From Microcyclospora pomicola (lineage: Eukaryota; Ascomycota; Dothideomycetes; Capnodiales): 64,000 nucleotides of DNA. The DNA lies in assembly GCA_002786065.1 (NCBI GenBank), contig NHNY01000008.1, forward strand, positions 62,001 through 126,000, written 5' to 3'. A program made the position numbers and the translations under genes. The stretch's first letter is position 1; the number at the start of each line of letters is the position of its first letter. The notes beneath the pieces are model-generated. The model was not told the DNA's origin. It was given only the letters and a program-made list of their open reading frames with translations, and ran no database searches. Below, in pieces: positions 329-47,533 of the stretch.

Positions 329-803
329 TCAGCATGTTGGGTGAAACCTTATAGACTGTACGATAGAGTTGACAGCTTCAGGCTGAAGCTCTTTGTATCA
401 TTCCTGCTTCGGTGGCTCAAGGTCCTGTTCCATACTCACCCAACCGCTCACCTCAGCCTGACGGGAACTCGATGAATCAGACCGCAGGGACATTGCCAGC
501 GCTGCGATCAAAGAGTGACCGCTTCCTTGAGCAGCTTGTTGTTGAAGACGTAGTGTTGTGATTAGTATATGTACAGGTAGGATGTTGCGGTGACAATAAT
601 CATGGCGCTGACTAGAGCTACCTGAGCTTCCAGCTTCACCCCGGATCTGTCACGCTGACGACCAATACCCTCACTGAACAATGACGTGGGTTGTCCGACA
701 CACTACAACATACCTCCTTATACATCCCTTGCTACAAGTGCAACAGTTGCGAGTACACAGGATGCGCCGTTGACGAAAGCGCGAGACATTGATTGAATGA
801 GTG
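329..803. other. gene-free spacer
   Basis: Lies between the LCP5 stop and the OMA1 start, so it should hold the 3' end of the first and the promoter of the second. Short frames here lack family resemblance. No repeat or RNA gene seen. Confidence 0.6.
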
Positions 804-2049
804 ATGATTTCTTTCTTGCGAACAGTCTGGCGCGCATCACCTTCGAGCTTCTCAACCTCGACCACCCAACGAGCAGCGGCATCCACAGCTACGACCGCAA
901 ACCTGAGAAATGGCTTCGTGACGACCTTCCCACAAACACCTCGGGTGCAGCTATCCTCCCAACATTGCAGACCTGCCGGACAGAAACAGCGCACATACCA
1001 AACATGGACGCGGCGGAAAACACAGACAAATTGGCAGGAAAGGTTTCGCGCCTCTCGAGAGCAGTGTCGCCGGGGGTATAGGGCACCATATTCACGAGGG
1101 TCACCTATATACTACCAGAGCTATCGCGGCGCAAGTTCTTTGTTTGCCAGATGGGCGGCGCAACCAACGTTCTACTATCAAGTCGGAGGCATTGCCGTCG
1201 CATGCGGAGGGTTTTACGCTTTCAATCTTGAGCGCGTTCCCGTAAGACGCCCTCTATCAACATACCACGTGAGAGGGAGCTATACTCATAGGTGTGTCAC
1301 AGGTTTCAGGTCGCTCACGGTTCAATGTAATCTCTCCAAGTCTTGAAGTCCAGCTTGCAGAATCGCAATATGAGCAGACGATGCAGCAATTCGGCCGGCA
1401 GATCATGGGTCCCCACACCTATGAGCATCGGATGGTGCAGCGAGTGCTGGACCGGCTGATCCCTCATAGCGGACTCGAGAACGAGCAATGGGAGATCCAT
1501 GTCATCGACGCCGAAGATAAGAACGCCTTTGTCATCCCGGGCGGGAAAGTGTTCGTCTTTCGTGGCATCCTCGACATCTGCCAGGGCGAAGACGGACTGG
1601 CGGCGGTGCTCGGCCACGAGATCGCGCACAACGTCGCCCACCATGCCGCCGAGCGTATGTCGCAAGCCTTCGTCTTCCTGCCGCTTGCCTTTCTCGGCGC
1701 AATGACCTTGGAGGTCAGCCCTCGCATTCTAGATCTCGGTATCAGCCTAGCATTCACACTCCCCGGCTCACGAACGAATGAGACCGAAGCGGACTACATT
1801 GGCTTGCTGATGATGGCCGAGAGCTGCTACGACCCTTCCGCCGCCATGGGGTTGTGGGCGCGCATGGAGGAGGCGGAGAAGAACGCCCCTCCGCAATTCC
1901 TCAGCACCCATCCGAGCAATCACAACCGGCTCGAGAAGATCCGCGAGTGGCTACCGCAGGCGCAGCAGAAATGGGAACAGAGCGATTGCAGTGCCATGGG
2001 AAAGTATGCGAGAGAGTTCCGAGATCGATACGACATGGCACGGCTGTAG
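804..2049 (+). CDS. OMA1: OMA1-like mitochondrial inner-membrane metalloprotease (M48)
   Basis: Two exons, 804-1241 and 1303-2049, give 394 residues. The 61-nt intron begins GTAAGA and ends CACAG, and splicing restores the block ERVPVSGRSRFN typical of the family (phase 0). The first ATG in frame is 804; the N-terminus (MISFLRTVWRASPSSFSTS) is a basic, Ser-rich mitochondrial presequence. A membrane segment (YYQVGGIAVACGGFYAF) precedes the peptidase domain. The zinc site HEIAH lies at about residues 251-255, and the third ligand fits NETEAD downstream. OMA1 is a stress-activated quality-control protease of the mitochondrial inner membrane. All catalytic residues are present. It converges on the ETF-beta gene. 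Confidence 0.93.
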
Positions 2050-2506
2050 AACTGAGCCACCCTCCGGTTCCGGACATCACGAAGCCTCACAAGTGGGAGG
2101 CATTTCCCCCTTTCGCGGTTTGTACGATGAGACGAAACGCATGCCGCAGGGATGCGTATGACTTTATGTTGCCTTAATCTTATAGCTTGTCAAAAACGCA
2201 GCTCAACCCTCTTCAAGATGTGACGAGAGATGGAGACTCTCCTAGCTTCTAGCCATCGAGCAACGCTGGTCAATGTCGCCGTATCGTTGTGGACCGTACA
2301 GTACATCAAACCAGTAGACATAAACAATGGCATCTTGCGTTCCGATCTTCCTCAAGAAGTCGTGATCCGCTGTGAGCACAGATGATCTCCCCCAGTGCCT
2401 CGGATCATTTCGTTTGCAGGATGTCGTAAGTTTTGTGTCAATGTCTACAGGAAATATATACATGCTGCCCCTCTGCACTTTTCTCCCTCCACCACGACAA
2501 TGACGT
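2050..2506. other. gene-free convergent spacer
   Basis: Separates the 3' ends of OMA1 (+) and ETF-beta (-). It should hold both terminators. No coding signal or repeat recognised. Confidence 0.6.
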
Positions 2507-3343
2507 TCATATCGCGCCAAGCTCCTTCAGCTTACCGATCAAGCCATCCACATCCTCCACCTTGCCGCCGCCCTGCCGCGCCGGCGGCTCGATCACCTTG
2601 ACCGTCTTGAGCCGCTTCTCCGCCGCGTCAAGCCCGTAGTCTTTGAGCGACTTCTTGACGAGCGGCTTCTTCTTCGCCTTCATGATGTTGGGCAGGCTGG
2701 CGTAGCGCGGCTCGTTGAGGCGCAGGTCCGTCGTGATGATCATGGGCAGTTTGGCGCGCAGCGTCTCGACGCCGCCATCCACCTCGCGCGTCACCGTGCA
2801 CGTCTCGCCGTCGATGGCGACCTTGCTGGCGCCCGTGGCCTGCGGCCAGCCCAGCAGGCCCGCCAGCATCTGGCCCGTCTGGTTGGCGTCGTCGTCGATG
2901 CTCTGCTTGCCCAGGATCACCAGGTTGCGCTTCTCCTCCTCGACTACCTTGCGCAGCATCTTGGCCACGCTGAGCGGCTCCAGCTCGCCCTCCTCCACCA
3001 CGTGGATGCCGCGGTCGGCGCCCATGGCCATGGCGGTGCGCAGCACGTCCTGCGCTTTGGCGGGTCCGGCGGAGAAGGCGAGGATGTCCTCGACGGGGGT
3101 CTTCTTCGCCTCGCGCAGTCGTACGGCCTCCTCGATCGAGAGTTCGTCGAACGGGTTCATGCTGTGCTTGACGCCGGCGGTCTCGACGGCCGTTTGCGCC
3201 TTGTTGACGCGAGGTTTGACCTGTGGGAGAGCTCGTGGTTAGTGGGGATTCTCGTTGTTGGACTGAAGGGAGTTGGGAGGAGGGGTGCGCACAGCATAGT
3301 CAATGACCCGCTTGACGGGTACTAATATTCTCAGTCCTGACAT
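2507..3343 (-). CDS. ETFB: electron transfer flavoprotein beta subunit
   Basis: Exons 3343-3293 and 3220-2507 (minus strand) give 254 residues, close to the human protein. Exon 1 codes MSGLRILVPVKRVIDYA; the 72-nt intron starts GTGCGC, a weaker donor, and ends CACAG; exon 2 continues VKPRVNKAQTAVETAGVKHS then MNPFDE. This matches the family order (VKRVIDYAV..GVKHSMNPF). The ETF signature region (LPMIITTDLRLNEPRYASLPNIMKAKKKP) is intact. With the alpha subunit it binds FAD and passes electrons from mitochondrial acyl-CoA and other dehydrogenases to ETF-ubiquinone oxidoreductase. The start is fixed by the family; a longer upstream frame is leader. Confidence 0.94.
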
Positions 3344-3940
3344 GTCGATGTGTATGTGAACTCCGAGAAAGAGTATCGTCAAGTGTGCATAGAGCTCATC
3401 AAAGACATGTCGAAAGACTGCTAGCTTGCGAGATCGGATTGTTACGGTCCACCTCGGCAACGGCTTCCCGACATTTCACATGGCATTTCTACTTATGACG
3501 AAGACACCACTCTTGTTGTATATCTAATGTTGCTGAGACTACAACCCAGAACCCATGTTGTTTCATGTTGCTGATGCAAGCCTCTGTATGATACAATACA
3601 GTCACATAAGCTACACGTTTTCATCATTCACAGCAAGCAACAAGCAACAAGACAGCAAGATAGCAGACATGTTTGGTCTCCGCATTGTCAATATTGTCTA
3701 AAATACATCAAAATACAACTGACTTTAACAAAAAAGTCATGGGTACGACATGCGCATGTAGATGTCGGCTGGTGTATTGCTACACTTGCCCTCCCATTCG
3801 CTGTTGTCATACCTCGTTGCATGTATGTAACATCGCACAGCTAATCAATAATCCGTGGAGAGGAGTGCTCAGCATCTAGGAACTTGTTCTTCCTGTGTCG
3901 ATGAGAGTTGCTCTGTTTTGAAGGATGAGCCGTGGCTCGT
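3344..3940. other. gene-free spacer
   Basis: Holds the ETFB leader/promoter and the 3' end of the RRM gene. AT-richer with many short CA/TG words; no frame with family resemblance. Confidence 0.55.
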
Positions 3941-5155
3941 CTATGCCGTGGCGGTTGGTGGCACACTGGCAGAGCCCTCGGCGGTGGACGGGGTTCCATC
4001 GACCTCAGCACCACCCTCGAGTGGGGCCGAGGGGTCCTCATCTTCCTTTCCAGGGCTGTCGATGGCGACCTTGACAGCGATCTCGCGACCTTCGATCTCC
4101 TTGCCATTCATCTCGGAGCATGCCTTCTGCTGAAGCTCCTCGCTAGAGAGCGTGACAAAGCCGAAGCCACGACCCTTGCGGGGTTCGTTGCGAGCCTGGA
4201 GCTTGCGGACCATGAACTTGGGAATGGGACGGAGGGCGATCTTGGCAGAGGTGGGCGAGTATTCAGCGAAGATTTCGAGGAGCTGAGGAAGCAAAGTCAG
4301 TATGGGATGCGCAGTGGGAGAGTAATGAACTTGGCTGATTTATTGCTTACCTTGTCCTCGCGAAGATCGTACGGCAGGTTGGCGACCATGATCTTCGTCT
4401 TGCTGGGGACACCGTCCTCGGGTGGTCCACGCTGCTTACGAGGGCGCTGCGCGCTCTTGCCAGCGTCGTCGGTGGTGAGAGCATCCTCAGCGCCGTTCTC
4501 GGTAGTCAAAGCCTCGTTTGTGGTCGCTGTCAAGGGGAGGACTTGGCCGGGCACATTGGTAGGGCCATCAGTTCCGTCCTCGCCGGTCTTCTTTCCGCCT
4601 CGTCCCCCACGACCAGCACGTGCGCCGCGTCCACGGCCACGTCCGCGAGTCGAGTTGCGGCGACGCTCCTGGCCCTCGCCTCCCTCGACTGCCTCAGCGC
4701 CGTTCTGCTCTGGCTTGCGTGCGAGTTGTACAGAGACCTTGCGCTCCATGATGGTCTTTCCGTTCAGCTCGTTGATGGCGCGCTCAGCCTCAGATGGTGT
4801 AGACACGTCGACGAAGGCGTATCCGACCGGGCGGGTGGTGCGTGGGTTGGTTGGGATCGAGGTCGTCTCGCTGTCACACATTGTCAGTCAGAAGGCCATT
4901 GTCTGAGCTCTGCAGATTCTAGACATACACAAGGTAATCCTTGAAGAAGTCCTTCAACTCTCCCTCAGTGGTCGCATAAGCGAGGTTTCCAATGTATAGT
5001 CGCCTGCCCTCGGCAGCACTGGCGATGACTGCTTCGTTCTGGGCAGCGTTGATGGGCTTGTCGCCGCCAGCACCGACGTTGGCGCCCTCGGCGGTGGTGG
5101 AAGGCTCGTTCAGCGAGGTGCTGGCCATTGCGGTGGTTGCAGCTTCAAGAGACAT
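3941..5155 (-). CDS. SBP1: Sbp1-like RNA-binding protein, RRM-RGG-RRM
   Basis: Three exons on the minus strand, 5155-4929, 4870-4351 and 4282-3941, give 362 residues. Donors are GTATGT and GTAAGC, and the reading frame is kept (phases 2 and 0). RRM1 (RRLYIGNLAYATTEGEL ... GYAFVDV) covers about residues 50-130 and is interrupted by intron 1. A Gly/Arg box (RGRGRGRGARAGRGGRGG) follows near 150-165. RRM2 (TKIMVANLPYDLREDK ... GFGFVTL) runs from about 232 to 330. The order RRM-RGG-RRM is that of yeast Sbp1, a cytoplasmic mRNA-binding translation repressor linked to decapping. The tail is acidic. Orthology is inferred from architecture; another fungal RRM/RGG protein is the alternative. Confidence 0.85.
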
Positions 5156-5996
5156 GATAGCGGTGGTCGGTCGGTTGTCGAGAACACGAAGAGTACTTGT
5201 GTGGATGGGGAGTACTTCGGTGGGAATGAAGTACTTCGTGGGTGAACTTGAGAGACCAAGGATGCAGAACCGCTGGTGTTGCTGCTGGAAGGTGGTTGAC
5301 AAGCTATGGAAGGCGAAAATGTCACGTTAGCACGTGTGCGACCATCGGAATAAATGGGTGACGGAATGCAGTGAAGCTTGCGGCATGTGTGAAGGCCGGG
5401 CAGGTCAGCGCGTGCTCGAGGCAGACTTACGGAGAGTTGGGTTGATGGCTAGCTAGGTGGCCGGGGTGGTCGTTTGACGGGTATTGGAGGTTGTCGTGAT
5501 CGGGCTTGACTGAGGTTGATGAAGAGGAGAGGGAGGAAGGGAAGTCGAGAAAAGGAGAAGAGACGTTCTTGTAGCACGCACCAGGCAAGTTTCACCCCGA
5601 GACGTCAGGAAAGTCGCAGCTCCCAAATTTTGGGACGGGGCTTGGCAAGGGTCCCGCGATGATTGGCTGGACCGCGGGCCTAGCGCATGGGGAAGCACAC
5701 GACACCACCGCCTCATGAATCCAGACACCGAGACCTTATATCGACGTTGAATGGGATATTGTAGCTATACACCGACAGACCATTACGATACTTATCCATC
5801 TAGTTGTCTGATGTATCAACCCGTTATCGAGTATGATGTTGATTTGACCAGTATTGTTGTAGACATATGCCGATCGCGTCATTAGCTCTGTCCTGTGCAC
5901 TAGGTTGAGCCTCATCTTCAACTTCAAGGCCTCGACCGTGAATGATGCTTATACACTAAGATAAACTCACCGCTGATCGGCATCCAAGTGTGATTC
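5156..5996. other. divergent promoter region
   Basis: Between the divergently transcribed Sbp1-like gene and TAH18. Pyrimidine-rich on the minus strand around 5450-5560, as in many fungal leaders. It contains the candidate leader intron at 5304-5430. The 91-residue minus-strand frame at 5453-5728 looks like leader rather than protein. Confidence 0.55.
5304..5430 (-). other. candidate 5'-leader intron of the Sbp1-like gene
   Basis: On the minus strand a consensus donor GTAAGT (5430-5425) is followed by a branch-like GCTAAC and an acceptor TTCCATAG ending at 5304, 127 nt in all. It ends about 150 nt before the Sbp1-like ATG. It does not change the protein; it is a splice prediction from consensus alone. 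Confidence 0.5.
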
Positions 5997-8064
5997 ATGG
6001 AAAAGGCGGATGTACACTCTGAAAGCGTAACAGCAGTGAAGCAGAGGTATGTCGTATTGTGTCATTAGATTATATGTGACATGCTCGATATGTGACAAAA
6101 GTATCCTCCCACGTGGGATCCGGCGATCATGATCTGACCACATCGCTAACATCTGAATCAGGAACAAAGTCAGCAAGGATGCCGAGCGGACGGCGCTGGT
6201 CCTCTATGGATCAGAAACAGGCAACGCCCAGGATGCGGCGGAAGAAGTAGGCAATATGACCGCTCGCCTCCACTTCGACACAACTATCCTCGACATGGAC
6301 TCGATCCAGCTGAAGGAAGTCGTTCGATCAACCATTATCATGTTCGTCATCTCTACCACCGGCCAAGGAGAGATGCCGCAGAATGCTCGGCGGTTCTGGA
6401 AAACTCTGCTGAGTAGTGCTCTCAAGCCAGGCCTGTTGCGCCGTCTGCGCTTCTCATCGTTCGGTATTGGAGACAGTTCATACGCTCGCTTCAACGTTGC
6501 TCATCGGATGCTTCACGGTCGTCTGACGCAGCTCGGCGCCCAGACGTTCTGTGATCGAGGCGAAGGCAACGAGCAACATCCAGAAGGCCACAGTGCTGGA
6601 CTACGAATGTGGATGGTCGCATTGAAGCAAGAAATATTGAACTCCTATGCTTTGCCGGAATCACTCCAGCCCATTGCCGACGATGAGTTCCTGGAACCGA
6701 AGTGGAGATTAGAGCTCAACCCCATCACTGCGCCTGCCCCTGATGGAAAGACTCCTCACGAGCAGCCATTGCATCCCTCACCAGCCCTGATCCCCATCCA
6801 TGGAGCATGCTGTGCTGACATCGTAAAGAACGATCGCATCACAACACATGACCATTTTCAAGATGTACGGCTTCTCGATCTTCGCGTCAAAGGGTCAATA
6901 AAGTATGGTCCAGGTGCTGTGGCTGTCATATATCCCAAAAACTTCCCTCAAGACGTGCAAGAATTCATCGATTTGATGGCATGGAACTCCATTGCCGATC
7001 AGCCTATACATCTCACATCTAAAGTCCATTCAAAGAGCGGCTCCCCTTCGCCCTTGCGACACCTTGATCTCGACAACATCACCATTAAAATGAGGTGGCT
7101 GTTGGAAAACGTGCTAGATATCATGTCGATTCCTCGCCGTTCCTTCTTTGCGAACCTGGTCTACTTCGCGGGGACCGCGTCCGAAGACGAAGCTTACCAG
7201 AAAGAACGATTGATGGAGCTGGCCAATCCGGAACTTATCGACGAGCTTTGGGATTACACCACCCGTCCGAAGCGGACCATTCTTGAGGTGATGATGGACT
7301 TTACCACTATAAAGATACCTTGGCAGTACGCACTGACGGTCCTTCCGGTCATACGTGGCAGGCAATTCAGCATCGCCAGCGGAGGTGACCTTCTCCTGAC
7401 GGAAGACGGCCGGACCAAAGTCGAGCTGCTCGTCGCCATTGCCGACCCACCCAGTCCGATTATCAAATGGCGTCGTCGCTATGGTGTATGCACGCGCTAC
7501 ATAGCCACTCTGCAGGCCGATCAGCAGATCAACATCAGCATCCAGCCAGGATACCTAGACGTCCAGCCGGACGAGCTTGCCGCCCCTGTAGTCATGATCG
7601 GACCCGGTACAGGTGTCGCCCCGATGCGCTCCATGATCTACCAGCGTCTTGCCTGGGCACGCGCGTCAAGTACCCGCGCACCAGGGCAAGGTCTAGCAGA
7701 CGACATACTGATCTTCGGCTGCCGCGCCTCCGCCAGCGACTACTTCTTTCACAATGAATGGGAACCTCTTTGTCGTGACGAAGGCTTGACTGTGCTGACC
7801 GCCTTCTCGCGCGACAAGCACCAGCCACGGCAGTACGTGCAGGACCATATCCGCGCCAACGGACCGCGTATCCGTGACGCGCTGATCGCACAAAGGGGGA
7901 AAGTGTACGTCTGCGGGTCGTCCGGGAACATGCCCAAAGGTGTACGTGAGGCGCTGTTGGACGTCTTGGAGCGCGAAGGGGAAGATGGCATGACACGTGC
8001 TGAGGCAGAGACATATCTAGACGGCATGGAGAAACAAGGGCGTTATAAGCAGGAGACGTGGTAG
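5997..8064 (+). CDS. TAH18: NADPH-dependent diflavin reductase Tah18
   Basis: The long frame opens after an in-frame stop without a start, so a short first exon was sought. Exon 1, 5997-6046, codes MEKADVHSESVTAVKQ; the intron (6047-6161) has donor GTATGT, branch CTAAC and acceptor CAG; exon 2 is 6162-8064. The product is 650 residues. Domains: flavodoxin-like (TALVLYGSETGNAQDAAEE at the start, then ISTTGQGEMP), an FAD-binding ferredoxin-reductase core (RQFSIAS), and an NADPH-binding part (GPGTGVAPMRS, VYVCGSSGNMPKGVREAL). Tah18 passes electrons from NADPH to Dre2 in cytosolic iron-sulfur assembly. The small first exon is a prediction, but it fits phase and consensus exactly. Confidence 0.92.
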
Positions 8065-41672: not shown

Positions 41673-41682
41673 CCGACTGTTA
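41673..41682 (+). repeat. left target-site duplication
   Basis: CCGACTGTTA, repeated exactly at 47524-47533 in the same orientation, directly outside both terminal inverted repeats. Confidence 0.85.
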
Positions 41683-41683
41683 G

Positions 41684-41706
41684 TGTATACAGCTCGGTGC
41701 ACCACA
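41684..41706 (+). repeat. left terminal inverted repeat
   Basis: Begins TGTATACAGC and ends GGTGCACCACA. Matches the reverse complement of 47501-47523 at 20 of 23 positions; the last 15 are identical. One extra G (41683) separates it from the duplication. Confidence 0.85.
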
Positions 41707-41778
41707 TGTGAAGGTCAGTGCCCCACATCACCAACGGTCACTAGCGTCGCACTAGCGCGAAAGCTTAATGCACCACAT
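41698..41778 (+). repeat. subterminal direct repeat TGCACCACAT
   Basis: TGCACCACAT occurs at 41698-41707 and 41769-41778; each is followed within 6-8 bp by AAGGTCAG. A 71-bp spaced direct repeat at the left end of the element. Similar words (GGTGCATGTGAT, GGAGGTCAGTG) occur near the right end. Confidence 0.6.
41750..41759 (+). repeat. left subterminal inverted repeat CACTAGCGCG
   Basis: CACTAGCGCG here and its exact reverse complement at 47436-47445 lie 67 and 78 bp inside the two ends of the element. This extends the terminal symmetry. Confidence 0.7.
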
Positions 41779-41856
41779 TAAAAGGTCAGCTGCACCTTCC
41801 GAAGGTTCTCTACATCACACCCCACAATTTTCGAGATTTTCAGCAATACCAGTTTT

Positions 41857-41922
41857 CTACTAGTTTACTACTAGTTTACTACCAATTCACTACTAGTTGA
41901 CTACTAGTTAACTACTAGTAAG
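41857..41922 (+). repeat. 11-bp tandem repeat, six units
   Basis: Six contiguous units of the form CTACTAGTTNA. Unit 3 reads CTACCAATTCA, keeping CpA steps that the others lack. It marks the start of the AT-rich core. Confidence 0.85.
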
Positions 41923-42106
41923 ATTTTCAAAGGTAAAGTTTGTTCCTATATACTAGTAAACATACTAGTACTAATACTAGTATAGATACTAGTACCTTAA
42001 GCAAAACTTAGGTAAAATAGACACACCTTACTTAGACTAGTACTAGAAAAAAGTTAGCTAGAAAGAAATACCTTTAGGCTTAAAAACTTAGGTAGCAGAT
42101 AGCAAA

Positions 42107-43188
42107 GTAAGTAAATTTATACTAGTACATATACTAGTTACAGTACTAGTATACTAACTAGTAATTTAGGGATTCTTTAAAATTAGAGCTAGGGAAAAGA
42201 TCTGTTATTGTCCTAGGACTATAGAAATAGATTCTAATAATTCTAAGAATAAGTAAGTTAGAAGATTATACTAGTAAAAATACTAGTTAGCTAACTAGTA
42301 TTTTTACTAATAGGCTTACTAGTTCCTCTACTATTTATAGTTTTATCTATACTAAGACTAATAACCTTCGTAAGCATATTAAAGGTAAGCATATTAACAA
42401 GCACCTTAAGCTTAAGGAGAGAAATAGAGGAAAACCCTTAAAGACTTAGTAGGTAGATAACGAAGGTAAGCTAGAAGTACTAGTATGTTAACTAGTATTT
42501 ATACTAGTACTAATACTATTTATAGCCTACTTTTAAGAGATTTTCTAACGCTATAAAGTAGTAAAGATAGAGCAGAAAAAGGAAGAAGAAGAAAAGGCAA
42601 GGAAAAAGTATGTAGTACTTAGAATGGTAATTTTACTAGTATTTCTACTAGTTTGCTAACTAGTTTCTAGGGCTAAAAACTCAATACCAAAGTCTAGGAA
42701 AAAGACCTAAGGTTCTCCTTAGTTAGACTACTACAACTCTAGTAGTAGTAAAAGGTAAGTATATTAGTTTCAATACTAATACCCCTACTAGTATAAGTAC
42801 TAGTATACTAACTAATAATAGAAGTTACAGATTAGCATTTAAGGACGTAGATAAGGAAGATAATAATAATGCTAAGACTAATTATTTTTCTAGTAAGGAA
42901 GAATTAGAGCAAGAGCTAGGACCTACTAAGAAAGATAAGTATGTATACTAGTTATACTACTAGTACTTTTACTAGTATTAATACTACTTTACTAACTAAT
43001 ATATAGTAATAACCTTTGCTACTTCCTACTTACAGCAAAAAACAAAGTTAATATAGTAGTAGCTAGAAAGATCGTTAAGGCCTAGGGATACTAGTTTCCT
43101 TGCAATACTTATAAGGGAAAAGGAAAAGGCAAAGGTAAGTTACTAGTATTTATACTAATATTAATACTAGTATACTAACTAGTATTAG
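42107..43188 (+). repeat. seven intron-like ACTAGT modules
   Basis: Seven blocks of 54-68 nt each begin GTAAGT, GTAAGC or GTATGT, contain two or three ACTAGT boxes, carry TACTAAC or a near match, and end TAG: 42107-42169, 42253-42313, 42466-42525, 42608-42670, 42755-42821, 42939-43006 and 43135-43188. The boxes pair to form hairpins. The stretches between them are purine-rich and coding-like. Similar paired boxes, without full splice signals, continue to 47.3 kb. They look like copies of one intron-borne sequence; splicing is not shown. Confidence 0.6.
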
Positions 43189-43320
43189 ACTGTCGTTTTA
43201 ACTCTTACTGTAACAACTTTAGTTAGGTCTTTAAGCATAATGCTAATAGCAATGTTCTTACTAAGCCTTACACCTAGGCATTTTATAAGAAGGTAGCTAG
43301 CAGAGTCAAGCCTTACTAGT
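42170..43320 (+). pseudogene. broken transposase-like gene relic with a BED-finger-like segment
   Basis: Between the intron-like modules are Lys-rich coding-like stretches on the plus strand. One, near 42314-42446, contains TKTNNLRKHIKGKH, which resembles the helix end of a BED zinc finger as found in DNA-transposon transposases; a Cys-rich stretch occurs near 43190. The relic is broken, with perhaps ten or more breaks of the kind that CpA-to-TpA mutation would give. No catalytic domain was recognised, so the superfamily is open. Confidence 0.45.
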
Positions 43321-43440
43321 ATAGTTACTAGTAAAAGAACTGGTTTGAATACTAGTTTAAGTACTAGTAACTAAAGGTTACTTTAGGTGTTTCTAAGAGC
43401 TAGTATATAGATCAAATACTAGTCTTTAAAATGCTTTTTT

Positions 43441-43790
43441 TACTAGTTTCAATACTAGTATTCAAATTAGTATTTACTTTATAACATAGATATCTGTTAT
43501 AGCTTAGCAAAACTAGTATTAATACTAGTATTTATCCTATACTAGCTATAGCTAGCTACAATTTCTTTGTATTCTAGTATTTATACTAGTATTTACTATA
43601 TAGCATGTACATCTATAACTTCTTTATACTTTAGTACATATACCGGTATTTACTCTATTAGCTATAACTTCTTTATATTCTAGTATTTATACTAGTATCG
43701 ACCTTTATACTAGCTATAGCTATCTAACCCTAAATCCTAGTATCTATACTAGTACTAACCTTTAGAGCTCCTATAGCTATAGCCTTTATA
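43441..43790 (+). repeat. degenerate ~60-bp tandem array
   Basis: About six units beginning CTAGTATTNATACTAGTAT, at 43447, 43512, 43574, 43632, 43680 and 43737, each followed by a stretch like CTATAGCTA...ATCTATAACTTCTTT. Spacing is 47-65 bp. Each unit carries one ACTAGT pair. Confidence 0.6.
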
Positions 43791-45199
43791 TACACTAGTA
43801 TATAATAGTATTAGGTTTAGAAACTACTTACTACTAATTAGACTATTAGTTATCTTTATAAAGCTAAATTTTCAACTAATATCACTTTGTTTACTAATAT
43901 TATACTAGTATAACTATTAGTATCGTTCTTACTCTATATATTATACTATTCTTGCTCTTCTCTAAGCTGTGCTCTAATCCTGATCTACTCTATCTTAAAT
44001 GTATGCTCTTAACAAGAAATTTCAAGAAGCCTCTTACGTTGCCTAATTATATAATTATCTCTCTTACGTTAGATTTGCAATCTACGTTCCTTAAGTTATA
44101 ATTGCCGCTCTTTAGTCGTAAGTGCATTTTCATTTACTCGAGATTGCTCTAACGCATTTATGCGTAGCCTAGAAGAGAGTTAGATACTACTACAAATACT
44201 AGTATAAATACTACTTATGTTGAATTAGATAGGGCATAGCGGAGACTTAGTGTCTAGGATCCTGTCTAAGAGCGTGATAGAGTAGACCGGAGGCTAGATA
44301 AGCCTCGTCGCCTTGTTAGGGTCGTTATACGCTACCTACTTACATATATATAGTCAAACTCATCGTTAGTAAGCTTACCTAAGGGTATAGATAAGGGCTC
44401 CCTATTACGCTTACGCCTTCTTTCTAAACAAGAGATAGTTAGTATGTATAATAGTATAAGTACTAGTATGCTAATTAGTAACTAGCTTGAAAATGTTAAT
44501 ATATACTTAGCCTCCCTAGATCTCTACTTATTCTGTTAACGATGTTTATAGAGCGGTCTTCGTCCTTTTAACTATACACTTTGAAGGAGTAATACTTATC
44601 AACATCGCGGCGGTTAAGAAGGGTAATACTATTAGCTTAGTTAGATTTAGACTACTAATACTAGTATCAGTATTAGTACCTACCTTAGTATTGTAGGAAG
44701 AAGGTTCTGTCTTTTACCTATTAAGTAACTCTTTTATGCAGATTGCTCTACTGCATTTGTTTGATTTCTGATATGTTTAAAGATGATTTCTAGTATCTTT
44801 AAACACACTTTATTCAACCTAGCTACAATAGCTAGGTAAGCCTTATGCCGAGCCTAATCCTAACACCTTTAGTTATATACTATTAACTAGTAAGTAAGTA
44901 GTATAAATACTAGTATAGAGAATAGTATCTTCGCTTACATACAATCTGTTATAGAATCTAGTAGTATAAGTCCGCACTTCGAGCTGTAAGAATAGAGAAC
45001 ATCTCCCTCTAGAGGGTAGATAATTCTCTAGCTAAAGCTACCTGATTAATTAATCTTACTAGGTAGATACAGCAAAAAACAATAGTATTTTAGACCTGTT
45101 CTATCTAGCTCCGATGTAAGGGATCCTATGTTGCGAGGTATAAACTAAAACCTAGCTTATTAGTTAGCAAGCCTTAATCAATACTAGTATCAATACTAG

Positions 45200-45900
45200 T
45201 ACCTTTTAATTGACCTACGCCTATATCTATCGTTACTGCTTAAAACCCGTCCCCTTCTAGGCGATGAAATCGCTACTATACTACTCTGCTAGTCTGTGTT
45301 GCAATTAACGAAAACACTCTTTCAAACATTACTTAATAAACTTCTGTACTCTCTCTAACTATATATGCTCGTATAAGAGTGCAAACTGTTTAGATAGTTA
45401 ATATACTAGTATTAGGACTAGTATTAGAAGCTTACTTTTACCTTGCTCTTGCTCTAATACTACGAAGATAATCTTATTTATATCTTTTTGCCGAATTCGC
45501 TTAAAGGACATATCGACTTTAAATGTCCCTTAATTAAGGAACATATTAGCCTATCGTCGGTAGAAGCAGATTATTATAGGGCTATGTTCGTCGTCCTAGA
45601 GGCCCTAGATGTATTGCTAGATACTAGTTAGTATACCGGTATAAGAACTAGTAATCAGACGAACCTTATCTAGGTTAAGTAGTTATTAAGAGTACTCGAA
45701 TTAAACACCCGCAAAGTGTTCTCTAAAAGAGTAAAAGAGTAATCTCTAATAATGTATCATTGCCTGTATACGTGATTTGTTTGCAAATAAAGGGTGAAGC
45801 TCTGTTAAAGATGTTACTTCTTTACTCTAAAGGAACTCCTATAAGAAGCTAGAGCGAAGGAAGGTTGCTAGATAGATATTAATATAAGTATACTAGTATT
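45200..45900 (+). mobile_element. Copia-like LTR-retrotransposon fossil (RNase H part)
   Basis: Near 45541-45617 the plus strand has a pattern typical of the Copia RNase H region (the SLSS-x-EA-(D/E)-Y-Y type motif). The borders given are approximate; long terminal repeats were not identified. It is broken, with many breaks (ten or more), has the same TpA-rich decay as its surroundings, and contains inserted ACTAGT boxes. It is probably old and nested in the larger insertion. Confidence 0.5.
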
Positions 45901-47435
45901 CGTACTAGTAGAGGTATTATTTATACTATTTGTAAGAGTGCTGTCTTGTGCTCTTTGCACTACCTAAGTAACCTTATTTAAAAGGTCTTAAGGAGTCCGA
46001 GATAGTAATAGTAGTAGATGTAAGTGTATACTAGTTGATGTAAATAGTGTATACTAGTTCTGCACAATAGTAAGGTTAAGTAGAATGACTAGATCAAACT
46101 CGACTGTACATTTAACTTTAACGAGCTTGCCCTTCTTACTATAGCTATAGAGGACACCTACTAAATAGTAGTATTAGTAGTAGTATTAATACTAGTATTC
46201 TTAATAAGATACATACTGCAGTTAGGTATCCTTAATTGCTAATTCTCGTAGATAGGGCAATAGGAAGTATAATCTAGCATATTGTTTTTAAGGTACTGTT
46301 ATAAGTATATTAGTAAGAGATCAATATTAATCTGATGCTCTCTTTAATATGTTATACATTAATAATTCTCGTGTATACTTAAATGTCCCTAAATAAAGTT
46401 AGTACAATAGATATAGGCTCTACGTCGGCTATCGAGGTCCTATATTAGGTTAGCAGTTATACTAGTATCGATACTAGTATAAAAACTAGTAAGGAATCAT
46501 TTATTACCTCCCTAAGCCAATTAAAGACTAGATAATAAGTCTCGTTTTATAGGGTGCACGTAATCTGTTTCTTATATCTTTTATAGATTGCTACGATAGT
46601 TGTATATGCGTTTATAACCAATATATTTAGCTTACTTCTATTAAGAAGATGTCGGGTTTTCGTAAGAGCTTCCTATGTTTCTGTATTAACATTAGTATAT
46701 AGTTTTGTCGCTACTTCTAAGGGCATATATTCGCATCTTTTAATTCTAGTACATTTCTATCTCTAGCGTTTACACTTTACTATACGAAGGAAGGGTAAAG
46801 AAGAGCTTTTTAGGTACCCTTTAACCTAAGAATAAGAGTATTAATGCTATACTAGTATTAGTACTAGTAGACATACTAGTAGAATATTACTATTAAGAAA
46901 GACCCTATAGTAGGCTAGAATAGAGGTACTCCGTCTTCGCCTTAGATAGGGACCCTATCGAGATTAATATAGTATGTAAAGCCTTTAGGATCTAAAGTTA
47001 GGTATTAAGGGAGGTGAAAAGTATACTTTAACTATCTTGTAGTAAGGGCTGTTCTAGGCTTTTTTCTAGCTATAAGCTAAGTTAAATTTAGAGGTCGGCT
47101 ATTACTATCAAGCCCTTCTTTAATTAACGTAGGATAAATAGGATGATATTGATAAAAGATCTCCTTATCTAGGACTTGTGTTCAAATCCTAAGATCTACA
47201 TTCTATAGTGTCGCTATACTAGTAACTAAACTAGTATTCGTACTAGGAATCGAACTAGTATTTATTTTAGTCCTAAGGTTGTTAATGTCTTAGCTTGCTT
47301 TGCAACGACTGTATATACTGGTCTGAATACTAGTACAATTGTTGTAGATGTTGATGTAAAGACAAAGTGTATGTCTGAAGGTGCATGTGATATTTAAACT
47401 TTGGAGGTCAGTGGAAAAGTTCCCTATCGCCAAGG

Positions 47436-47445
47436 CGCGCTAGTG
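47436..47445 (-). repeat. right subterminal inverted repeat
   Basis: CGCGCTAGTG, the exact reverse complement of 41750-41759. Confidence 0.7.
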
Positions 47446-47500
47446 GCAAAAATTTTGAGTTCGATAGGTGGTAGTAGCTTGTGTCTCCCTGAGCTTTCAT

Positions 47501-47523
47501 TGTGGTGCACCGAGCCGTAACCA
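47501..47523 (-). repeat. right terminal inverted repeat
   Basis: Starts TGTGGTGCACCGAGC and ends GTAACCA. Matches the left repeat at 20 of 23 positions and abuts the right duplication directly. Confidence 0.85.
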
Positions 47524-47533
47524 CCGACTGTTA
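47524..47533 (+). repeat. right target-site duplication
   Basis: CCGACTGTTA, the exact partner of 41673-41682. Confidence 0.85.

Follow-up and report, generated by a model that had tools for sequence, protein, structure and literature searches.

The genome of the fungus Microcyclospora pomicola contains an AT-rich block in which the hexamer ACTAGT (hereafter called a box) occurs again and again, both in a series of short intron-like blocks and in the DNA around them. This block lies in a stretch of 64,000 nucleotides from contig NHNY01000008.1 that was analysed as a whole and is referred to here as the window; positions given without a contig are those of the window. The question raised by the locus is why one short word should be so abundant there. 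A sequence-only reading had offered two answers, namely that the intron-like blocks are copies of one intron that spreads in the manner of introner-like elements, or that a minisatellite has been made uniform by decay of CpA to TpA. Our analysis makes both of these unlikely. The source of the boxes is a DNA transposon with terminal inverted repeats (TIRs) at 41683-47524, and we assign a probability of roughly 50% to the view that they are phased sites, arrayed specifically in this transposon, to which a sequence-specific DNA-binding protein would attach, and which would act like the VANC-bound motif arrays of plant VANDAL elements.

The AT-rich block is a discrete insertion. Its G+C content is 28-35% in 1-kb steps across 42001-47000, compared with 48-70% in steps clear of the block, and its 24-bp TIRs (41683-41706 on the plus strand and 47501-47524 on the minus strand) match at 21 of 24 positions. 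They are flanked by a 9-bp target-site duplication (TSD) at 41674-41682, which is repeated with the same letters at 47525-47533. A genome search with the stretch from 42.1 to 43.3 kb, whose copy counts are lower bounds, returned at least two further copies at 95-96% identity, and three copies of the element were found, which begin exactly at 41683. The inner end sequence of the element has exactly six perfect matches in the genome, and these are the six ends of the three copies; sites with one mismatch to this 15-bp sequence lie at C12:1114523-1114537 and C55:2083-2097 (C denotes a contig). Copy 1 is that of the window; the left and right ends of copy 2 are on C6 and C16, and those of copy 3 on C22 and C17, respectively. 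The ends of copies 2 and 3 were paired because the target site is duplicated on both sides, and a perfect 9-bp TSD flanks all three insertions (CGACTGTTA in the window, and CTCGCAAAG and TTGCCGCAT for the others, each on both sides).

There are 76 boxes in the window, 73 of which are inside the element, where dinucleotide shuffles (n = 500) yield a mean of 11 and a maximum of 21. Outside the element, 3 boxes are present in 58 kb of the window versus 3.9 expected. The recurrence of boxes in mobile DNA noticed from the sequence alone is thus confirmed, and the spacing of 8-14 bp given for them can be sharpened: pairs of boxes occur at distances of 12 bp (28 pairs) and 11 bp (3 pairs) and at no other distance below 22 bp, with further pairs at 24 bp (16) and 36 bp (8). 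Pairs at 12 bp in the shuffled element have a mean of 0.02 and a maximum of 1. Runs in exact 12-bp phase number 18 and include 52 of the 73 boxes. They span 18-54 bp between their outer exact boxes, and 16 of the 22 in-phase hexamers in their interiors are exactly ACTAGT. The leading octamers of the element are TACTAGTA (43 occurrences), ATACTAGT (37), and ACTAGTAT (34), and the first of these is a palindrome that encloses 43 of the 73 boxes.

Arrays of this kind are nearly confined to this transposon family. Genome-wide, 38 of 39 triple arrays reside in copies of the element (three of the 38 may be double-counted, given that C6 and C16 overlap by ~90 bp), and the reversed control gave 1 match. 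The sole triple array elsewhere is at C6:3177 and has a 12-bp pitch; it lies in an AT-rich stretch (C6:700-9000, locus L030) that is Gypsy-like by eye and has been altered by repeat-induced point mutation (RIP). Pairs at 12 bp number 97 across the genome (places listed in part) compared with 11 for the reversed control. Among viral contigs, 13 stretches carry four-box arrays, with 4-12 occurrences of ACTAGT each, and uniform tandem repeats are present in at least 6 of them.

Neighbouring spacers between the boxes of a run do not resemble each other. The central 4 nt of spacers match at 0.338 versus 0.31 expected, and agreement between neighbours in a purine/pyrimidine (R/Y) code, which is blind to C-to-T and G-to-A changes, is 0.545 versus 0.534 when the assignment is shuffled (22 pairs, p 0.46). 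A positive control is supplied by a true tandem array at 41847-41919, whose 11-bp unit contains ACTAGT (6.6 copies by Tandem Repeats Finder) and to which the 11-bp pitch within the element is confined. Adjacent units there are 0.91-1.0 identical in the same code, as expected of a minisatellite in which each unit is a copy of the next, and the 12-bp units do not share this property. A constant palindrome at a constant pitch with free spacers resembles phased protein-binding sites.

These data also bear on the possibility that the boxes are an old mutational repeat, in which short units spread long ago by slippage in the non-coding DNA of the element, never had a function, and look conserved partly because TACTAGTA is immune to RIP. 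In its favour, the element contains the 11-bp array (one unit of which differs between the copies) and a 57-bp minisatellite at 43522-43666, the octamer offers RIP no target, and all 33 within-run spacer pairs taken together agree slightly above chance in R/Y code (0.583 versus 0.534, p 0.14; 3 identical). However, protection from RIP cannot explain why exact boxes stand beside adjacent spacers that are at chance in this code, and divergent spacers combined with intact boxes and an intact 12-bp pitch ask for selection. We consider this account unlikely, if still a serious one.

The decay of the element by RIP gives a second view of the history of the boxes. The alignment of the three copies comprises two stretches of 1688 and 3067 columns, with 43371-44455 left out of the box polymorphism test. 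Among 310 two-state columns there are 308 transitions and 2 transversions, and the differences fall mostly at CpA/TpG, the pattern of C-to-T change with a preference for CpA that defines RIP-mutated repeats. The sole alignment gap is one 11-bp unit absent from the copy on C22. The TpA/ApT ratio is 1.97 in the core versus 0.53-0.58 in the flanks. Against this background, TA steps in boxes vary among the copies in 6 of 165 cases versus 223 of 780 for other TA steps (p 2e-14), and box centres alone vary in 5 of 65 compared with 28.6% of other TA steps (p 1e-4). Because TACTAGTA contains neither CpA nor TpG, RIP is unable to erase it, and the low variation argues that the boxes were already TACTAGTA before the copies decayed apart. 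The arrays are kept across all three copies, each of which is decayed.

The same measurements leave little room for the view that RIP itself created the boxes by converting words such as ACCAGT, ACTGGT, and ACCGGT. Five boxes do read as one of these words in one copy, and a RIPed control stretch on C58 (locus L034) is mildly box-rich, with 6 ACTAGT versus 2.3 expected. Nevertheless, box centres vary far less than other TA steps, two other RIPed controls show no excess (10 versus 9.3 expected and 0 versus 1.4), and RIP sets no 12-bp pitch. A minisatellite homogenized by CpA-to-TpA decay is disfavoured on similar grounds, as the TA steps of boxes are much less polymorphic than others and neighbouring 12-bp spacers are unrelated. 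Creation of the boxes by RIP is, in our estimation, barely credible.

A different connection with RIP is suggested by the pitch. RIP is described as able to detect triplets placed at intervals of 11 or 12 bp (PMC4858203), and the boxes could be an interspersed-homology signal for this machinery, which compares helices at 11-12 bp intervals, so that arrays would pair and draw or titrate RIP. The element is heavily RIPed and its arrays have pitches of exactly 11 and 12 bp, but its copies are ~95% identical and ordinary homology is already enough. Moreover, the runs of 18-54 bp are far below the several hundred bp that are sensed, and 6-bp units at 11-15 bp had little or no effect in one setting, a point for which that study announces an explanation (PMC4858203). 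We judge such a role to be very unlikely.

Boxes are not restricted to any single part of the element. Gene A, on the plus strand at 42092-43314, contains 23 boxes, and 10 lie upstream, 15 in the middle (43189-44200), and 25 in the right half. In addition to the 11-bp array, which is upstream of gene A, there is a 12-bp phased array of TACTAGTA at 41950-41994, also upstream. A box-rich middle segment follows the gene at 43315-43909 and includes the 57-bp minisatellite, whose unit consensus has one box, and further boxes adjoin the right end at 47218-47334. The boxes upstream, in the middle, and in the right half mean that the motif is not tied to the introns of gene A.

Within gene A, the seven blocks of 54-68 nt are confirmed. 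All of them, between 42107 and 43188, start with a donor (GTAAGT, GTAAGC, or GTATGT) and finish in TAG, and they hold a [CGT]TAAC branch site and 2-4 exact copies of ACTAGT. When they are spliced out, a single frame of 262 codons passes through eight exons; the window copy has 10 stops in this frame, the C6 copy 11, and the C22 copy 12. As few as 10 stops are reached in 100 of 6561 exon-frame combinations, and support for the splicing from this single frame is good but not overwhelming. Boxes are strongly concentrated in the introns, which hold 21 of the 23 boxes in 36% of the gene length (p 4e-8). In shuffled sequence 4.9 boxes are expected in the introns and 1.0 in the exons, where 2 are observed; thus, the introns are enriched in boxes and the exons are not depleted.

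The seven blocks are real, but an origin as copies of a single intron is improbable. Their donor, branch, and box layout is common to all, and their global similarity score of 60.6 well exceeds the 28.8 obtained with shuffled interiors. None of 300 shuffles reaches the observed similarity when the bare boxes and splice signals are held fixed. If 1, 2, or 3 flanking nt are held constant too, this value is attained by 1, 15, and 4 of 300 shuffles (null means 57.5, 58.9, and 58.6), which leaves ~2-3 of the 32 score units by which the introns exceed full shuffles. A weak excess is also present in the intron leaders alone in R/Y code, where 13 of 500 shuffles reach the observed value. This excess is small, and both the box offsets and the leaders differ from intron to intron. 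The seven blocks therefore share boxes, box context, splice signals, and perhaps a little more. Introners would appear as many near-identical copies in unrelated genes, and the genome-wide search (in which host introns were checked via the box pattern only) instead places 38 of 39 triple arrays in one element. The introns and their boxes stand, the descent from one spreading intron is weakly supported, and we regard an introner-like family as highly improbable.

The introns also share a register. In all seven, the A of the [CGT]TAAC branch site is at 0 mod 12 from the boxes, and in five this A opens an exact box. The branch A is at 42157 in intron 1 (42107-42169, 4 boxes), 42294 in intron 2 (42253-42313, 3 boxes), 42659 in intron 4 (42608-42670, 3 boxes), 42811 in intron 5 (42755-42821, 2 exact boxes and an in-phase ACTAAT), 42995 in intron 6 (42939-43006, 3 boxes), and 43178 in intron 7 (43135-43188, 3 exact boxes and an in-phase ACTAAT). 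Intron 3 (42466-42525, 3 boxes) has an in-phase GTTAAC at 42491, and an alternative CTAAT is located farther along. Eleven [CGT]TAAC sites are present in gene A, and besides the seven in phase there are two at phase 11 and two without a nearby box. The donors are unlocked (phases 1, 2, 3, 5, 7, 8, and 8), and the clustering of acceptor phases (0, 7, 10, 10, 10, 11, and 11) may follow from the short distance between branch and acceptor. The simplest account of the register is overlap, in that the AC closing the branch motif opens a box.

This register speaks for a role at the RNA level, whereby the boxes would function in splicing, either as decoys that imitate a branch site (UACUA) or by folding the introns into hairpins. 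The introns also resemble each other (60.6) more than they resemble box-bearing stretches outside them (37.9), a comparison that includes splice signals confined to the introns. On folding ten intron or intron-like stretches, z was below -2.5 in three and between -1.9 and -0.3 in the other seven, and with only three strong cases hairpins were set aside as the main idea for the introns. Furthermore, boxes are dense upstream of and between the genes too, and near boxes on the minus strand of 43.3-47.3 kb 4 of 15 [CGT]TAAC sites are in phase, with 11 out of phase. A function in RNA seems to us distinctly unlikely, if somewhat less so than a signal for RIP.

The reading that we prefer, phased sites for a DNA-binding protein, can be stated as a mechanism. 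Each TACTAGTA octamer would be a site for a dimeric or multi-finger DNA-binding protein, and the 12-bp pitch would turn adjacent sites to approximately the same side of the helix, which might allow co-operative loading along the element. The protein would probably be encoded by the element itself, with gene A as the candidate, and it would tag copies of the element, most likely as a means of opposing silencing or of activating the element's genes, as VANC does on VANDAL elements. This anti-silencing role is an inference by analogy. Sites could occur in introns because these are non-coding DNA spread across the element, and a branch site that overlaps a box position would let the branch and the 12-bp pitch coexist.

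Several observations weigh against this preferred reading. As many as 21 of the 73 boxes are outside any 12-bp run, five of them in the 11-bp array, and a purely DNA-level function does not predict the phase lock of the branch sites unless both constraints act together. No binding protein was found: genes A and B (the latter a tentative gene in the right half) lack a Pfam match over the cut-off, a database homologue, and a genome match beyond the three copies. Because the arrays are common to all three copies, no case of the motif evolving anew and independently was observed. Growth by tandem duplication is visible in VANC arrays, and here only in the 11-bp array. If a tandem array were old enough, its spacers could have become entirely dissimilar, and RIP immunity possibly helped old words to last. 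Low variation of the boxes among copies is not proof of selection, since RIP cannot hit a box, and the slight agreement over all within-run spacer pairs and the mildly box-rich C58 control also count against the reading.

Gene A has one feature in keeping with a finger protein. Reading the copies in parallel reveals half of a C2H2-like pattern, C-x3-Y-x5-L-x2-H-x4-H, near 42336-42392, with the cysteine taken from the C22 copy and the histidines from the window copy, and the first cysteine of the finger not seen. Gene A gave no Pfam match over the cut-off and no reported finger, no homologue was found at E 1 among 1084 database candidates, and the best match in a search of the PDB (E 0.33) is not meaningful. 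In the genome itself, genes A and B match only the three decayed copies, with no intact relative.

The right half of the element appears, tentatively, to hold a minus-strand gene with introns like those of gene A. Gene models place this gene B at 44228-46756, with many stops and with boxes in intron-like gaps, and one model extends to 43903. Over 44201-47300, CTAAC occurs 10 times on the minus strand versus 2 on the plus strand, and donor-like words are even (13 and 12). The best model scores 53.6 on the minus strand (37 stops) versus 21.8 on the plus strand (33 stops), compared with 49.7 for the plus strand (16 stops) versus 23.2 for the minus strand (22 stops) in the left part. A heavier stop penalty reduces gene B to 146 codons with a score of 22.0, and the models built for the three copies contain 36, 39, and 40 stops. 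There is no Pfam match over the cut-off for gene B, and no database homologue at E 1 among 7995 scored.

Several box clusters of the right half fall in minus-strand blocks with donor, branch, and acceptor. Two of these blocks read as introns of gene B: 45386-45435 (GTAAGC...ATTAAC...CAG, 2 boxes) and 44629-44683 (GTAGGT...TCTAAC...TAG, 1 box), both with the branch at phase 0. Three others are intron-like, namely 45152-45218 (2 boxes, branch GCTAAC at phase 0), 45617-45660 (ACTAGT/ACCGGT/ACTAGT, weak donor GTCTGA, branch ACTAAC at phase 0), and 46440-46507 (3 boxes, weak donor GTAATA, branch GCTAAC at phase 4), the last of which is chosen only by the model for the C17 copy.

As to the class of the transposon, Mutator-like elements typically have TSDs of 8-11 bp, and some of their families lack TIRs. 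With its 9-bp TSDs and 24-bp TIRs, the element is a putative Mutator-like element judged by its ends alone, because no transposase was recognized: six read-through frames and two spliced gene models gave no Pfam match over the cut-off, although RIP and the many introns may hide a Mutator-like DDE transposase. The Copia-like fossil that had been placed in this DNA likewise finds no Pfam match over the cut-off in these frames and models. The Mutator-like transposase family PF10551 has a single match in the genome, at C58:423590-423859 (loci L034 and L056; E 3.8e-13; 4 TAG), which is RIPed and separate from the element. This C58 sequence is not a second example of the arrays, as its top repeated octamers have only 4-6 copies, nothing comparable to the box arrays. 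Searches with Rfam at gathering scores and with ARAGORN gave no match anywhere in the window.

Some peculiarities of the other copies were also observed. The part of copy 2 on C16 (locus L028) is interrupted at 763-7950 by another element of ~7.2 kb, whose terminal direct repeats (~220 bp) are 97.7% identical and whose 5-bp flanks read ATTAA. This nested element sits within an extra AT-rich stretch of ~870 bp that is box-free and absent from the window copy. The assembly breaks in one 90-bp box cluster (window 43281-43370), where contigs C6 (at 480347), C16 (at 1), and C22 (at 1) end. In copy 3 on C17 (loci L032 and L031), 2776 bases of DNA with 43-57% G+C at the contig end replace the element to the left of window position 44456, as a nested insertion or an assembly joint.

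The arrays can be compared with several known systems. In the En/Spm transposon, the element's protein TnpA attaches to subterminal 12-bp motifs, short words repeated many times in the DNA of the element; these are near the ends, whereas the boxes run through the whole element. The introner-like elements of Dothideomycetes are likewise short, similar spliceosomal introns, but the introns of gene A are not near-identical, are not found in host genes, and belong to a box pattern that extends beyond introns. The recognition of interspersed homology by RIP in Neurospora shares the 11- and 12-bp periodicity, although it concerns matches between two molecules and not a motif repeated within one. Among fungal transposons, a table row for Mutyl (PMC6446971) lists a 9-10 bp TSD, a 22-bp TIR, two open reading frames with the second antisense, and C2H2; the TSD, the TIR, and tentatively the two-frame layout are similar here, but a transposase is not recognizable. 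Box arrays are unmentioned for Mutyl-type elements in the available portion of that source (PMC6446971), and a literature search covering titles and abstract openings found no such arrays described in a fungal transposon.

The octamer itself has a counterpart in Arabidopsis, where the motif reported for the three C2H2 fingers of SUVR5 by SELEX (systematic evolution of ligands by exponential enrichment) is exactly TACTAGTA (PMC3469426). This case indicates no more than that tandem C2H2 fingers can target the octamer; SUVR5 is described as a plant host protein that mediates dimethylation of histone H3 at lysine 9 (H3K9me2), and no relation by descent is claimed.

The closest precedent for a function of such arrays, from what the sources available in part describe, is the VANDAL elements (PMC5735166, PMC10398659). 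VANC21 is reported to bind a short motif arrayed in the non-coding DNA of its element, including introns, and in VANDAL21 and VANDAL6 of Arabidopsis the non-coding DNA, both introns and upstream regions, is dense in one short motif with few occurrences in the rest of the genome (PMC5735166). The boxes are likewise dense in non-coding DNA including introns and, with 38 of 39 triple arrays, nearly confined to their own family. The differences are that the host is a fungus, that the motif is a palindromic octamer at a fixed 12-bp pitch, and that the 12-bp units are not visible tandem duplicates, growth of that type being seen in the 11-bp array only. Genes A and B, both decayed, yielded no homologue that might point to a VANC-type binding protein, and no VANC sequence was compared directly. 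A fuller version of the protein-site reading, which we hold to be rather unlikely, is that the element carries its own address system: RIP-proof octamers at a pitch of one helical step would fill introns and spacers, a zinc-finger reader encoded by the element would shield or activate its copies, and branch and site letters would be shared in a 12-nt register. Such a system would be the fungal equivalent of VANC anti-silencing, evolved under exposure to RIP. Anti-silencing motif arrays have been described, in the accounts available, for plant VANDAL elements, and a fungal case, if true, would mean that transposons facing RIP also carry self-recognition sites, which may be immune to RIP by their very letters. 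The branch register, if true, would add an example of DNA-level and splicing codes that overlap within introns of ~60 nt.

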